In this document: positions 47,870 through 53,381 of the stretch, piece after piece
Position numbering within the stretch: position 1 is the stretch's first letter
Layout of the letters: each line of letters opens with the position of its first letter
Assembly: GCA_012797975.1 (NCBI GenBank)
Contig: JAAZOD010000026.1
Location: 1-64,000, forward strand
DNA from: Pelolinea sp.
GTDB lineage: Bacteria; Chloroflexota; Anaerolineae; Anaerolineales; Anaerolineaceae
Direction: 5' to 3'
Length of the DNA stretch: 64,000 nt
Position numbers and translations under genes: made by a program
Notes under the pieces: generated by a model
What the model saw: only the letters and a program-made list of their open reading frames with translations
Database searches by the model: none
Told to the model about the DNA's origin: nothing

Positions 47870-50017
47870 TCAATTGATTGGAACGCGGGTGGCTTCGGCT
47901 GCAGCTTTGCCTGCCAGAATGGCTGCCCGGCTGACCCCCAGGAGCTGTGGGTAAGGGATGGGTGCAGCCCGCCCATTTTGAATAGCATCCACGAAGGCGC
48001 TCCAGGATGCCTGATGCCCTTTATCCTGGCGGAAAGCAGAACGATAGTGTTTCTTGTGACCATTGAAAACCAGTTCCAGGGTGCGGAAATCATCCAGCAC
48101 CGCCACCCTGCCGCCGCAGAAGATCTCGACCCTTTCTTTTGGAAAAGTTTTATCACCGTTGGCAAGATAGGCAATGCTGCCGATCGAGCCGTCGGCATAT
48201 TCCAGGGTGATATGCATATTATCCTGATGATATTTCCCGAGGTTGGGCAGGGCAGTGGCTTGGACGGCGGAAATGGGTTGATTTGCCAGAAATGTGAGGT
48301 AATCGATAAAATGGCATCCTTCTCCGATGATGCGGCCACCTCCCTGCTGCAGATCATGCAACCAGTGGTTGGAAGGCAGAAAGCCAGCGTTCACCGTGTA
48401 GTGCGCGTACAGCGGTTCGGAGCGGCTGGAGAAAAACTCCTGTAAGGGAATGGATAAGGGAGCAAAGCGCCGGTTGAAGCCGACCATGAGCAGAGGTGTT
48501 TTGGGCTTTGCCAGCTCCTCTTCGATATTTTTCAGGTCCTCCAGGGTGAGCGCCAACGGTTTTTCACAGTACACATGTTTTTTGGCTCTTAAAGCTTGCA
48601 AGCTCAGGGCAGCATGTTCATCGTGGCGGGTCATGATCACCACGCTGTTGATGGTCTTATCCCTGATGATCTCCTGTGCAGAGGAGGTGGCATAGGCGAA
48701 GCCGAATTTCGCAGCGGCGTGCTGTGCATTGACCCCGTTGATCGAAGCAATACCGACGAAATGGGTATCTTTATCCTTGCGCATAGCCGGTAAAAAGGTG
48801 GCTTTGGCATAGTTCCCTGCGCCGATCACCCCCACATTCACCTTCCCAGCAGGCATGCTCCCGGTTTGAACGGGGATGCGCACTGCTGGTTTTTCTTTGG
48901 TTTGAGGGTAGGTGAGCAAAACTCCCAGGTAGGGTTCCTTTGTCCTCCCGGTGATCAATTCATAGGCACTGCTAGCGTTCTGGATCTCGAATTGGTGAGT
49001 GACAAGGTCAGCCACCTGCAGCCTTCCATTATGCAGAAGGTTCACGAATGCTTCTAAGTTTCTGCCTTCTGTCCAACGCACATACCCGAGCGGGTAGTCA
49101 TGCCCTTCTTCTTCATAGAGCGTGTCGTAGCGCCCTGGCCCAGAGGATCGGGAAACTTGAAAATGCAGCTCCTTTTCATAGTAAGGTTTGCGGGGAATGT
49201 TCAGACCCACCACGCCCAGTGAAATGACATGTCCACGGTCACGAGCGATCTCGCCGGCCAATTGAACGGTATCATCACTGCTGGTGGCAGCGCAAATCAA
49301 AACCGCGTCAAAGCCGTGACCGTCGGTCAACGCGCTGGTTTTGGCACTGATCTGCTCCCGGCTGCAGGCATTGATCCCCGCTTTTTTGGCAAATCGGATG
49401 CGCTCTGCACTGGTATCAATACCGGTGACAAGGCAGCCGTTGGCTTCCACCAGTCGGCTGGTCAGCAAACCCAGCAAACCCAACCCAATCACTGCCACGC
49501 GGTTGCCAATTTCCAGATGTGCCAGACGGATGCCATTTAGGGAAATGGCACCCAGTGTGGCAAAGCAGGCAGATTCAAACGGAATATCAGCCGGTAGATG
49601 CGCCAGCAGATTTTGCGGGATCACGGCATACTCGGCGTGGACTGCATGATTCCCACCTGCACAGACCACCCGGTCTCCAACCTGGAATCCTTCCAATCCC
49701 TCTCCGACTTCTGTAATGGTCCCTGCCGATGAATAGCCAAGCACGAGGGGTTGGTCAAGACGGTTAAAGGTCGAATCCAGCGTGGTAAGGATGCCCTCCC
49801 TTTTTGCCTTGTCCAGCACCTGTTTTACCAGATCGGGGCGGGATTTTGCTTTTCGCATCAGGTTCTTTTCCGCAAATTCCACCAGAGATCGTTCGGTTCC
49901 AGCAGAAACCAGTGAAGCGGCGGTGCGCACCAGGGCGGTTTTTTTCTGCACCTGCGGAATGGGCACATCCACTACCTTTGTTTCTCCCGTGTTGATATAC
50001 TGAAGAACCTGTTTCAT
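47870..50017 (-). CDS. Bidomain oxidoreductase: zinc-type dehydrogenase fused to Gfo/Idh/MocA
   Basis: A 715-residue fusion. Residues 1-370 are a medium-chain dehydrogenase (GDRVVCAGGNHAVHAEYA, GLGLLGLLTSRLVEANG nucleotide loop). About 375-715 are a Gfo/Idh/MocA NAD(P)-sugar oxidoreductase (VNVGVIGAGNYAKATFLPA, EKPLALTLEDL, HDLQQGGGRIIGEGCHFIDYL). This architecture is known next to heparinase-like and glycosyltransferase genes and probably modifies a nucleotide-sugar. ATG 50017 follows GAGG with 5-bp spacing; the frame extends to 50032. First gene of the operon oxidoreductase-heparinase-GT-phoB-phoR. Confidence 0.92.
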   Translation of the reverse strand: MKQVLQYINTGETKVVDVPIPQVQKKTALVRTAASLVSAGTERSLVEFAEKNLMRKAKSRPDLVKQVLDKAKREGILTTLDSTFNRLDQPLVLGYSSAGTITEVGEGLEGFQVGDRVVCAGGNHAVHAEYAVIPQNLLAHLPADIPFESACFATLGAISLNGIRLAHLEIGNRVAVIGLGLLGLLTSRLVEANGCLVTGIDTSAERIRFAKKAGINACSREQISAKTSALTDGHGFDAVLICAATSSDDTVQLAGEIARDRGHVISLGVVGLNIPRKPYYEKELHFQVSRSSGPGRYDTLYEEEGHDYPLGYVRWTEGRNLEAFVNLLHNGRLQVADLVTHQFEIQNASSAYELITGRTKEPYLGVLLTYPQTKEKPAVRIPVQTGSMPAGKVNVGVIGAGNYAKATFLPAMRKDKDTHFVGIASINGVNAQHAAAKFGFAYATSSAQEIIRDKTINSVVIMTRHDEHAALSLQALRAKKHVYCEKPLALTLEDLKNIEEELAKPKTPLLMVGFNRRFAPLSIPLQEFFSSRSEPLYAHYTVNAGFLPSNHWLHDLQQGGGRIIGEGCHFIDYLTFLANQPISAVQATALPNLGKYHQDNMHITLEYADGSIGSIAYLANGDKTFPKERVEIFCGGRVAVLDDFRTLELVFNGHKKHYRSAFRQDKGHQASWSAFVDAIQNGRAAPIPYPQLLGVSRAAILAGKAAAEATRVPIN

Positions 50018-50045
50018 ACTTACCTCACGCATATTGGATGATGAA

Positions 50046-50073
50046 ATTATAACTATTTATTCACGAATATCAA
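50046..50073 (-). promoter_or_regulatory. Promoter of the polysaccharide-phoBR operon
   Basis: On the minus strand, TTGATA (50073-50068), a 16-bp spacer and a perfect TATAAT (50051-50046), 28 bp before the chosen ATG. It begins right at the tail of the preceding terminator. Confidence 0.72.
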
Positions 50074-50104
50074 AAAGAGGCTGAACAATCATTCGGCCTC
50101 TTTT
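50073..50104 (-). terminator. Terminator after the bactofilin-like gene
   Basis: A 13-bp stem (AAAAGAGGCTGAA with TTCGGCCTCTTTT, one G-T pair), 6-nt loop and a T-run on the minus strand. It separates the sigma/anti-sigma/bactofilin unit from the polysaccharide operon. Confidence 0.85.
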
Positions 50105-50125
50105 CAATCGATCGGTTTTCTTGAA

Positions 50126-51130
50126 CTACTTGCTTTTTTGGGGCAGTTCGGGGGGAGTGGCTGGTTTGGGTGGGGAATGCTTCCCTTTTTTATTTCCAGC
50201 ATCTTCGATCTTTCCAAAGCGACTGATCACCACTCCGCCCAATCCGTAGCAGCTTGCCACCATTCCCAAGATCAAACCCAGGCAGGGGATAAAGCTGAGC
50301 AAACTTACAACAATGGAGATCAGAATGGCTCCGACCAATGTTTGCAGAATTGACGACATTTTCAAGTATAGCCAGTGATTGAATCGTTCTCCCACAATGG
50401 CTGCCAGCGCGATCCATCCGAAAAGCAGCGCTAGGCCAAAAATTACCAGCAGGATCAGTGCAATGGGGGAGAGGCAAATGGTGATGGCCAAAATGATCGA
50501 TATTACCGGCACAACCAGGGTTACCAGGAATCCCACACCCCAGGCAGTGCCTGGCTGATTTTTGATGGTGCGCACACAGTTTTGTGCGGGTTTCGGCAGC
50601 AGGTAAATGATTAAACATGCGAGAAAGCAGAAGATGGCAGCAAAGATCAAACGGCTGCTCAGCACCCGCTCCGGATTGGTGAGGTAAGGAAAGATGGCGC
50701 TGAGACCGGTCCAGGTCTGGCGAAACGCAAAGGGGTTGGAATAGGTGCTGATCTCTCCCATCACAGCAGCACCAGGTTCCTTATCCAACTCATGAAAAAC
50801 CTGGTCGATATTCCCATGAACGATTGCGCTGGATGATAGGGTGGTGGAGCCACCCAAGGCAAAAATATCGCCGGTAACATCCCCTGAGATCGCGGCGGTG
50901 CTCCCGATGAGACTGATATCCCCATTTACCGTCGCTCCCTCTTCAATGGTAATGCTGGAGCCGATGACTGCTACATCTCCCTGCAATGTTTTTCCGCTGG
51001 CGAGCGTATATACCTCGCCGATGACCAGTGTGCCATCATCGCTTTCCTGAACGACAGCGGTTTGGGTGCACCCTGCAAGCAGGAGTATCAGGAAAAAAAG
51101 AAAGAGAAAGAACCCTTTATTCTTCTGCAT
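50126..51130 (-). CDS. Bactofilin-like lipoprotein with multi-pass membrane domain
   Basis: A 334-residue protein. A signal peptide ends in the lipobox LLAGC (Cys21). Residues 30-115 show repeated short beta units (SGKTLQGDVAVIGSSITIEEG, then GDISLIGSTAAISGDVTGDIFALGG), typical of bactofilin/polymer-forming repeats. Residues 160-300 hold about four membrane segments. The C-terminal tail is Lys/Pro-rich. The bactofilin-like part probably lies outside the membrane. Its start overlaps the anti-sigma gene by 14 bp. Confidence 0.85.
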   Translation of the reverse strand: MQKNKGFFLFLFFLILLLAGCTQTAVVQESDDGTLVIGEVYTLASGKTLQGDVAVIGSSITIEEGATVNGDISLIGSTAAISGDVTGDIFALGGSTTLSSSAIVHGNIDQVFHELDKEPGAAVMGEISTYSNPFAFRQTWTGLSAIFPYLTNPERVLSSRLIFAAIFCFLACLIIYLLPKPAQNCVRTIKNQPGTAWGVGFLVTLVVPVISIILAITICLSPIALILLVIFGLALLFGWIALAAIVGERFNHWLYLKMSSILQTLVGAILISIVVSLLSFIPCLGLILGMVASCYGLGGVVISRFGKIEDAGNKKGKHSPPKPATPPELPQKSK

Positions 51131-51668
51131 AAGCCGGGGCTTCCTGTTGTTCCCGATGATTTTTTCTGGCTTTCCAGATGATGTAGGTAAGCAAAATGAT
51201 GAACATATTGGCGACGCCGATCATGAAGATGCCCAATGACCATCGGACGATGGAAGGGACTCCATTGATGAGCATGGTCAGCTCTGAAAGACCCTTGGTG
51301 ATGAAGAGGATGATCTGTGTGGTGAGGGTGATCAGGTTTGCCAGGAAAGAGGCGAAGGAACCAGAGAGAAGAATATAGGCAATCAGGGAAAGCAGAAGAA
51401 AGAACAGACTGCTGAAAACGATGATGCGCCTTCTAACGATTGTGCGTTTTCTCTGTTCTTGCTGCAGCTTGACCTGCCAGCGAGCGGTGAAACCGGCTGT
51501 GGGAACATGCTGGTCAGCGCTGTGTATGCCTTGCAAACTTTTTTGCCAGCCCTCATTCAATTTTTGGCAAACACTGCAGCTTGCCAGGTGGTTTTTCAGC
51601 AGTTCACTTTCCTCGGCGCTTAAAGGTGAATCATCCAGGATCCATTTTTCATATTGCTTGTGGTTCAT
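51117..51668 (-). CDS. Zinc-finger anti-sigma factor
   Basis: A 183-residue protein with an N-terminal zf-HC2 motif H27-x3-C31-x2-C34, as in anti-sigma factors of the RsrA/ChrR class. About three membrane segments follow (near 75-97, 100-122 and 145-170). It likely holds the adjacent ECF sigma factor at the membrane. The frame is open to 51740, but the ATG at 51668 follows GGGAGG. Overlaps the sigma gene by 20 bp and the bactofilin-like gene by 14 bp. Confidence 0.88.
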   Translation of the reverse strand: MNHKQYEKWILDDSPLSAEESELLKNHLASCSVCQKLNEGWQKSLQGIHSADQHVPTAGFTARWQVKLQQEQRKRTIVRRRIIVFSSLFFLLLSLIAYILLSGSFASFLANLITLTTQIILFITKGLSELTMLINGVPSIVRWSLGIFMIGVANMFIILLTYIIWKARKNHREQQEAPAYAEE

Positions 51669-52281
51669 GCTGCCTCCCTTCTTTACGGGAAATATCATTC
51701 TCTTCGGAATTCCATTGTTCTGCCATATGCTGCCTTGCACGATGTAATCTGCTCTTTACTGCGCTCTTGGTTATTTCGAGCGCATCGCTGATTTCATCTT
51801 CTGAAAAATCATACCAATATTTTAGAATCAATACCATTCTATCCTTTACCGGCAGAGCTGCCAGGTTTTTTTGGATAAGTTCGTTCTGTTCGCCGGTGGT
51901 AACGACCTTTTCCGGGTCCGGAGAATCATCCATGATGCCAAATTCCATGATCTCATCCAGGTCAACCGACAGCAGGTGCCTTTTTCGCTGCTGGTCGATG
52001 CAGTAATGGGCTGCGATGGATAACAGCCAAGTCGCAAAAGGGCGGCTGGAATCATAACGGCGGATATAGCGATAAGCCCGGATGAACGATTCCTGTGCAG
52101 CATCTTCCGCTTCCTGGGGTGTGCCCAGCATGCGGTAGCAAAGGTTGTAAACAGGTATTTGAAAATGCTCGACGATAGCCGTGAAGGCATCCTCGTTCCC
52201 TTCCAGAACCTGTTTTACGCATTCTGCTTCCGCGAAGCTGGTATCCAAGTGCGGCTCCAAAGTTTTTCTATTTATTCCCAT
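51649..52281 (-). CDS. ECF RNA polymerase sigma factor
   Basis: A 210-residue sigma-70 family protein of the ECF type. Region 2 contains YNLCYRMLGTPQEAEDAAQESFIRAYRYI and FATWLLSIAAHYCIDQQRKR; region 4 contains LPVKDRMVLILKYWYDFSEDEIS and a helix-turn-helix ending VKSRLHRARQHM. The ATG at 52281 lacks a clear SD; a TTG at 52311 would add 10 residues. First gene of the three-gene unit. The minus-strand promoter was not identified; a GAAATATTTC palindrome lies at 52334-52343. Confidence 0.93.
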   Translation of the reverse strand: MGINRKTLEPHLDTSFAEAECVKQVLEGNEDAFTAIVEHFQIPVYNLCYRMLGTPQEAEDAAQESFIRAYRYIRRYDSSRPFATWLLSIAAHYCIDQQRKRHLLSVDLDEIMEFGIMDDSPDPEKVVTTGEQNELIQKNLAALPVKDRMVLILKYWYDFSEDEISDALEITKSAVKSRLHRARQHMAEQWNSEENDISRKEGRQHEPQAI

Positions 52282-52357
52282 ATACGCTTTCGTGCAGAAA
52301 AGGTTGCACAAATCTCAATTCCAAGATAGTGGTGAAATATTTCGCATGTTTTCGCTG

Positions 52358-52385: not shown

Positions 52386-52418
52386 CCATTATAGAATATA
52401 TTGAACAGGAATAAGTTA

Positions 52419-53381
52419 ATGTGGCGTGAATATTTTCTTAACGATCCTCTTCCGGCATTGTTAAGCGCCCAAGATCCAGGGCTGTGTTATTCGGTCGAAC
52501 ATGTCCTGTTGGGCAGGTCAAATCAGAATGTGCACGAGATTTGGCGGAGCAAACCGGTTCTCCGCATTCTGAAAGGGCAGCAACCTGATGGAAGCTGGCG
52601 TTTCAAGGGCAGCCGGCCGGGGGAGGAATTCGGCGAGAATTATGAACTGGTGGAAACCTGGAAAATGTTGCGTCAACTGGTGGGGAAATATGCATTCGAT
52701 CGGGAACATCCGGCTCTGCAACTTGCGGCAGAGTTTGTGTTTTCATGCCAGAGCGCGGAGGGAGATATCCGCGGCATCCTCAGCAATCAGTATGCCCCTT
52801 ATTACACTGGCGCTCTCCTGGAGTTGTTGATCGAGGCCGGTTATGAAAAAGATGACAGGGTGCAGCGAGGATTGGATTGGCTGCTTTCCATGCGTCAGAA
52901 TGATGGGGGTTGGATCATCCCTTTGAACATGTTCAAGCAGACCTTTTATTATGGAATGGCTCGCAAAGATCCCATTCCACCCGATAAAAGTTTGCCCTCT
53001 TCCCACATGACCACCGGCATGGTGCTGCGTGCTTTTAGTGCCCATCCTGACTATCGAAAAAAAGAAGAGGTGCTGTGGGCTGCCGAATTGCTGGCATCGC
53101 GTCTTTTTAAAGCGGATGCCTTTACCTTTAGACAGGCACCCAGCTACTGGTTCAAATTGCAGTACCCATATTGGTGGACCAACCTGCTTTCGGCGATGGA
53201 TTCACTGGCTGCTTTTCGTTTCAAACCGCAGGATCCGCGCATTCGTGCCGGGTTGGAATGGTTTCGTAATAATCAAAACCCCAGCGGGACCTGGAATTCC
53301 AGTTATGACGGAAAAGACCCGGATGCAAATGGCTGGATCACCTTTGCTGTTTGCCGGATGGTGAAATCTTTTCTTGGATGA
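52419..53381 (+). CDS. Prenyltransferase/squalene-cyclase-like toroid protein
   Basis: A 320-residue alpha/alpha toroid with QW-type repeats: QQPDGSW (near 55), RQNDGGW (near 160) and QNPSGTW (near 285), plus a W-rich middle. It is half the length of squalene-hopene cyclases and lacks the DXDD catalytic motif, so cyclase activity is unlikely. Such single-barrel proteins may bind or break down sugars or lipids, but function is unknown. A TTG at 52401 is in frame; ATG 52419 is preferred because AGGA precedes it. It ends 18 bp from the convergent GNAT gene. Confidence 0.85.
   Translation: MWREYFLNDPLPALLSAQDPGLCYSVEHVLLGRSNQNVHEIWRSKPVLRILKGQQPDGSWRFKGSRPGEEFGENYELVETWKMLRQLVGKYAFDREHPALQLAAEFVFSCQSAEGDIRGILSNQYAPYYTGALLELLIEAGYEKDDRVQRGLDWLLSMRQNDGGWIIPLNMFKQTFYYGMARKDPIPPDKSLPSSHMTTGMVLRAFSAHPDYRKKEEVLWAAELLASRLFKADAFTFRQAPSYWFKLQYPYWWTNLLSAMDSLAAFRFKPQDPRIRAGLEWFRNNQNPSGTWNSSYDGKDPDANGWITFAVCRMVKSFLG

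Follow-up and report, generated by a model that had tools for sequence, protein, structure and literature searches.

Why does a gene for a bactofilin-like membrane protein follow directly upon the genes for an ECF sigma factor and its predicted membrane-bound anti-sigma factor, and does its product take part in the sensing of envelope stress? This question is raised by a locus in the 64,000-nucleotide stretch of the Pelolinea sp. genome analyzed here (the window). Three minus-strand genes between 52248 and 50126 are arranged in the order sigma factor (51649..52248), anti-sigma factor (51117..51668) and bactofilin-headed membrane protein (50126..51130), and the overlaps of 20 and 14 bp originally described for the three reading frames are both exact. 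Our preferred answer, to which we assign a probability of about 0.5, is that they make up a self-contained and self-regulated envelope-stress switch consisting of a sigma factor, a zinc-type anti-sigma factor and a co-anti-sigma factor with five transmembrane helices and a bactofilin head.

The three genes are a strongly conserved unit. The original prediction named separation of the bactofilin gene from the sigma pair as its refutation, and the opposite was found. Among 147 genomes of the source family, 99 contain both the sigma and the bactofilin gene, 44 contain neither and four contain one of the two (bactofilin protein in 102 genomes at E <= 1e-6; sigma in 100 genomes with profile A1 at E <= 1e-55). 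Broken frames or contig ends can explain the four split genomes: G018, G124 and G136 have bactofilin without sigma and G032 has sigma without bactofilin; the sigma frame is broken or shortened in G018 and G124 (loci L077 and L034), and the matches in G136 and G032 are contig-end fragments (L105 and L184). The genes stand in order at 99 of 110 loci, 98 times with the head and once (L110) without it. The remaining eleven comprise two loci with no sigma gene in the stretch (L043, L062), four fragments (L098, L101, L104, L105) and five stand-alone long paralogues (L106-L109, L111). As choosing by bactofilin was to be avoided, a further set was seeded by the sigma profile alone in the named-genome collection, and the best 80 of 575 relatives, all Chloroflexota, were used. 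Some genomes occur in both this set and the family set, so that the two differ in how loci were chosen and are not independent samples; in the sigma-seeded set, the anti-sigma gene is present at all 80 loci and the bactofilin protein at 79, the missing one being on a stretch that ends 320 bp after the sigma gene (L232). The exact 20-bp overlap is kept in 81 of 98 family cassettes and in 72 of these 80 loci, a recurrence beyond chance in two sets that have genomes in common. Deeper in the Chloroflexota, 180 of 400 genomes gave a bactofilin profile match. In 14 of 20 stretches from other families and classes sigma, anti-sigma (some with weak scores) and bactofilin are encoded on one strand, three contain sigma and bactofilin with no anti-sigma detected (L352, L353, L356) and three have no sigma nearby (L343, L349, L355). 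Two of the stretches (L346, L347) are near-copies, and in L337 and L350 about 1 kb lies between anti-sigma and bactofilin.

The first gene encodes an ECF sigma factor, exactly as had been claimed. The short protein contains sigma-70 regions 2 and 4, both over the Pfam cut-offs (Sigma70_r2, PF04542, E 5.1e-18; Sigma70_r4_2, PF08281, E 1.5e-15), and scores 103.6 bits with TIGR02937 (cut-off 42.9). The nearest NCBIfam models are those for SigW, both below cut-off, and orthology with SigW was rejected on the equivalog cut-offs (149.4 versus 209 and 139.3 versus 243.1 bits). The ECF-type promoter of the operon, TGCAAC-N16-CGTATA, is an exact match on the minus strand at 52281..52308 (running from 52308 to 52281) and recurs in relatives. 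It speaks against the ATG at 52281 as the start of the sigma gene, since this codon begins at the last base of the -10 element; because of this overlap, translation probably starts at the TTG at 52248, which has GGAG 6 nt before it and agrees better with the relatives. With the pattern [N]G[CA]AAC-N15-17-CGTA, the promoter was found at the expected place in 95 of the 99 family-set cassettes, 88 with a spacer of 16 and seven with 17. Of the other four, one has GAAAAC instead (L026), one is located where the contig begins (L061), one has a broken sigma frame (L077) and one is the headless cassette L110 discussed below. The same promoter type precedes 80 of 80 sigma-seeded loci (best 80 of 575 relatives), four times 121-150 bases before the sigma domain where 60-100 are usual, and it is present for ten and absent for seven of 17 deep-phylum sigmas. 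We infer from these sequences that the operon is autoregulated by its own sigma factor.

A hairpin with a U-rich 3' arm (50070..50108, minus strand) directly past the bactofilin gene has 13 pairs and a fold energy of -20.9 kcal/mol (z -3.65; none of 200 shuffled sequences did as well), and a sigma-70-like site agreeing in 11 of 12 positions is situated at 50073-50046 before the next gene. Together these two features suggest that the three genes form one transcription unit, and the hairpin is probably the operon end. We word this with caution because the hairpin is absent from the list returned by a simple terminator scan of the region and promoter-like sites are near shuffle numbers: terminator-like sites number four versus 2.9 in shuffles, which is near chance, and sigma-70-like sites six versus 3.1, which is not clearly above it. 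The downstream neighbour (47870-50032, minus strand) has a sigma-70-like site of its own and, judged by eye, looks like a fusion of an alcohol-dehydrogenase-type and a Gfo/Idh-type oxidoreductase. Upstream of the operon, a divergent ORF extends from 52401 to 53381.

The second protein had been described as a zf-HC2 anti-sigma factor with three membrane segments. Its zinc domain is corroborated: the Hx3Cx2C motif of zinc-type (class I) anti-sigma factors resides in a small cytoplasmic helical domain, the gene lies beside an ECF sigma gene, H27, C31 and C34 are invariant among relatives and H3 is nearly so. Pfam zf-HC2 matches 37 of 58 aligned relatives at E <= 0.01; for the Pelolinea protein the match (E 0.0017, 18.8 bits) stays under the cut-off of 22.2. 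The membrane part needs correction, as hydropathy across the 58 relatives yields two firm segments at about 86-95 and 146-158 and a marginal hydrophobic one between them (about 105-135), so that three equally firm segments are rejected. With the structural model (pLDDT 92.5, pTM 0.43), Foldseek found one plausible relative, RsiW with SigW (5wuq, probability 0.94, E 0.22), and a second structural comparison put three anti-sigma factors on top, namely RsiW (Z 6.4, rmsd 5.9, 68 aligned), RslA (Z 5.0) and RseA (Z 4.4). By the standards of the tool itself such Z values are modest; support comes from the three top anti-sigmas in combination with the invariant zinc ligands. The protein is predicted to bind and inhibit the sigma factor.

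For the third protein, a bactofilin-like lipoprotein with a multi-pass membrane domain had been proposed. Residues 46-127 match Pfam Bactofilin with 30.4 bits (cut-off 27.9), and 36 of 64 relatives match at E <= 0.01. The model (pLDDT 86.5, pTM 0.59) features a beta-solenoid at 33-130 that aligns with the Thermus bactofilin 6rib (Z 14.0, rmsd 1.9, 92 aligned) and with BacA (2n3d, Z 11.9), the next row, which is unrelated, being at Z 10.6. Bactofilins ranked first only in this second structural comparison; it came after Foldseek, which gave no match at E <= 0.001 for the whole model and ranked two bactofilins 9 and 10 with a probability of 0.90. When a sequence profile was compared with solved structures, BacA came up at no better than E 0.38, and a scan of genome contigs seeded by the bactofilin protein alone confirmed no relatives. 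Pfam score and structural match together identify the head as a bactofilin beta-solenoid. In the model, helices follow at 153-177, 193-216, 218-254, 260-278 and 282-302, and hydropathy and charges point to about five transmembrane segments with the head outside and the C-terminal tail probably inside; a Pfam family covers this region in no more than one of 64 relatives. Head and membrane domain of the proposal are thus retained, and a lipid anchor is predicted for the window's protein, which has a signal peptide with the lipobox L-A-G-C21. Relatives seldom have a lipobox: in the family set it occurs in 17 of 99 proteins, or in 18 when L-P-G-C is counted as well, and among the proteins of the sigma-seeded set (best 80 of 575) in 8 of 79. 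Lipidation was rejected as a defining feature on these counts, and the predicted lipid anchor is a lineage-specific trait, not a conserved one.

Cassettes that lack the head help in deciding which part of this protein matters. In genome G122, a second cassette (L110:1277-2974) consists of sigma, anti-sigma and the transmembrane domain alone. A search of 400 genomes of the phylum with this headless protein, for which no Pfam match was found at E <= 0.01, gave 23 genomes with a match. Nine of the 20 loci returned (L400-L405, L407, L408, L415) encode a sigma factor, an anti-sigma factor (weak scores, zinc motif present) and a headless transmembrane protein of about 165-210 aa in this order; two others are cut by contig ends (L399, L406), five have no sigma gene within the stretch (L409-L413) and four are headed forms (L414, L416-L418). 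The ten headless sigmas make up one side of a branch with a support of 100/99 in a tree of 65 rows. The five-helix domain thus accompanies sigma/anti-sigma pairs repeatedly, in some cassettes with the head and in others without, which suggests that the membrane domain and not the bactofilin head is the regulatory partner. Of the original idea that a polymer-type protein partners the anti-sigma factor, the three-gene unit remains; the head itself is probably not obligate, given that the sister cassettes keep the transmembrane part only. In several headless cassettes, a second copy of the transmembrane gene follows. A longer stand-alone paralogue combining bactofilin and transmembrane parts is present in the Pelolinea sp. 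genome (L106:4883-6280, contig C23) with no sigma gene nearby. The sigma's promoter motif precedes the longer paralogue in G064 and G065 (L219, L220), and a TGAAAC variant of it makes the one in G003 (L109) a possible target.

What the switch controls can be approached through its promoter. The strict motif is present in 106 of the 147 family genomes, the reversed control giving 0 to 3 matches per genome. Six genomes have both genes and no strict site; nine, all 61-87% complete, have neither gene and yet a strict site. From genus g27 (G073-G101, 29 genomes) the cassette is absent throughout, and the strict motif occurs there in one of the 29 genomes as a single site (G088); PspC is also absent in both g27 genomes sampled (G075, G080). 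We took 111 sites, that is L112 of the Pelolinea sp. genome, 30 motif-search loci and 80 chosen from the listed sites, the latter from genomes up to G067 only and avoiding known operon sites. A start was found within 150 bp for 106 of them, ten belonging to the operon's own sigma, which left 96 predicted targets with mechanically chosen ORFs. At a Pfam threshold of E <= 0.001 these include PspC (16), DUF2807 (9), DUF5362 (8, weak), Phage_holin_4_2 (6), DUF4870 (5), LiaI-LiaF-like_TM1 (5), Sensor (4), LiaF-TM (4, partly the same proteins), YccF (3), DUF2085 (3) and two each of DUF4126, DUF4013, Rce1-like, DUF7544 and Bactofilin. Other families occur once each, and among these terminase, MFS and glyoxalase have the appearance of chance hits; PspA is absent among the 25 of 29 Pfam families listed. 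Among the frequent predicted targets is a conserved membrane protein of about 74 aa (L167:1162-1383, L132, L138, L141, L222-L226); its sole Pfam match, to DUF5362, is weak.

The claim of envelope-stress control gains support from this predicted regulon. Besides the target families themselves, a strongly hydrophobic segment occurs in 87 of the 96 targets compared with 13 of 48 window genes, a hand-picked control of the larger ones. In the reverse direction, 30 PspC genes were picked solely by their Pfam score, and for 24 of them the motif lies no more than 150 bp upstream; the remaining parts of these loci give an expectation of 0.003. The Pelolinea sp. genome has only two strict sites. There, a LiaF-TM-like gene follows the strict motif and a PspC gene the relaxed one, but neither the relaxed motif (five versus 12 in the reversed control) nor GAAAC-N15-17-CGTA (33 versus 129) is enriched. 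As far as predicted promoters tell, PspC and LiaF-type genes are thus under the control of the system.

At rest, the sigma factor would be held at the membrane by the cytoplasmic domain of the anti-sigma factor, and the five-helix protein would sit beside the latter as a co-anti-sigma factor, in the way that YhdK accompanies YhdL in the SigM system; the beta-solenoid head on the outside would report on the cell surface or serve as its scaffold. Upon disturbance of membrane or wall the complex would change and the sigma factor would be freed, possibly by allostery or by proteolysis. The free sigma factor would then direct transcription of its operon and of a Psp/Lia-type set, which comprises PspC, LiaF-TM proteins, DUF2807 lipoproteins, holin-like proteins with four transmembrane segments, small membrane proteins and, in two genomes, the longer bactofilin paralogue; the membrane would thereby be reinforced, and newly made anti-sigma factor and partner would shut the sigma factor off again. 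Going by sequence, the three-gene switch probably turns on membrane-repair genes upon envelope damage. The proposed co-anti-sigma role rests on analogy, conservation and the headless clade. In a bolder version, the bactofilin fold has become, in Chloroflexota, the sensory or scaffolding outer head of a five-helix co-anti-sigma factor that restrains a SigW-like sigma, and the Psp/Lia-type regulon is switched according to how far a bactofilin layer outside the cell is assembled; this version appears rather doubtful to us.

It is also conceivable, if at clearly less than even odds, that an ordinary sigma/anti-sigma switch is at work and that the bactofilin-headed protein takes no part in signalling. 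It would be simply the first effector of the switch, a scaffold on the outside that makes membrane or wall stiffer, and dosage would explain its co-transcription with the sigma pair. The longer paralogue, which in G064 and G065 is an ordinary predicted target and in G003 a possible one, keeps this explanation alive, stand-alone paralogues without sigma exist, and the bactofilin fold is a structural one. A mere effector is harder to reconcile with a fixed place beside the anti-sigma gene at 79 of the 80 sigma-seeded loci (best 80 of 575), the other targets being scattered, and with a second sigma clade in which the membrane domain occurs and the head does not. This clade, taken together with the sigM-yhdL-yhdK precedent, leads us to favour a co-anti-sigma factor with an added head.

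Sensing might instead reside in the anti-sigma factor, which, like RsiW, would be cut by a PrsW-type and then by a site-2 protease and leave the third protein as a modulator or bystander. RsiW is its nearest fold, and PrsW-family matches occur in 20 and M50 matches in all 21 of 21 genomes examined, Pelolinea sp. included; both families are common and their presence does therefore not discriminate. However, RsiW has a single transmembrane span, the protein studied here has two firm segments and a hydrophobic middle, and the third gene stays linked, all of which renders this route improbable. No support was found for the bactofilin gene as a chance neighbour of the sigma pair. With fixed order and overlaps, joint presence and absence (99/44/4) and 79 of 80 sigma-seeded loci (best 80 of 575), chance neighbourhood is rejected, its probability being negligible.

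If a bactofilin head belongs to a co-anti-sigma factor, a bactofilin domain would lie on the outer side of the membrane and have a part in signalling. For a little-studied phylum, the analysis predicts a main envelope-stress system whose promoter, regulon and parts are defined, and it draws attention to a five-helix domain, not covered by a Pfam family, that repeatedly accompanies ECF sigma pairs as their third partner. The system can be tested in cultured species that carry the cassette, Pelolinea submarina, Longilinea arvoryzae and Anaerolinea thermolimosa. In the open-licence literature, we found no report of a bactofilin with a transmembrane domain in Chloroflexi and no work that brings together at least three of the subjects Anaerolineae, Chloroflexota, ECF sigma factors, envelope stress and bactofilins. 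In the same literature, of which the 2021 ECF reclassification is not part, no paper ties, by its title, a bactofilin to an ECF/anti-sigma pair. The main texts of two Psp surveys (PMC11237479, PMC9239133) and an anti-sigma survey (PMC7406223) do not mention bactofilins.

Among known systems, SigW-RsiW from B. subtilis provides the nearest NCBIfam models for the sigma factor, the nearest solved anti-sigma fold (5wuq) and the same kinds of targets; the scores lie below the SigW cut-offs, and the system described here differs by more than one transmembrane segment in the anti-sigma factor and by the bactofilin-headed third gene. The SigW promoter is TGAAAC/CGTA. The sigma-W core regulon includes yvlABCD, with pspA secondary (PMC3498285), YvlC being a PspC protein and YvlB a DUF4097 protein (PMC9239133). 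The Lia/Psp systems share PspC, LiaF-TM and DUF2807 with the predicted targets, and LiaF also joins a transmembrane domain to a beta-helix (PMC11237479), but control is exerted by LiaRS there and by an ECF sigma factor here. Moreover, the head is of the bactofilin and not of the Toastrack type (Z 7.6 with Toastrack 4opw versus 14.0 with bactofilin). With the bactofilins BacA and that from Thermus it has the solenoid fold in common and exceeds the Pfam cut-off; classic bactofilins are cytoplasmic, whereas the protein presented here combines a signal peptide with about five transmembrane helices. SigM-YhdL-YhdK is likewise encoded in a three-gene operon of sigma factor, membrane anti-sigma factor and second membrane protein (PMC6827917), the very composition found in Pelolinea sp. 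YhdL and YhdK hold SigM, and a response to undecaprenyl phosphate without regulated proteolysis has been proposed (PMC11081497). The bactofilin head is an addition here, and the five-helix domain is likened to YhdK by arrangement. The nearest characterized arrangement is thus sigM-yhdL-yhdK, and the Pelolinea sp. operon appears to encode an ECF envelope-stress switch of a known type that is new in its bactofilin-headed membrane partner.
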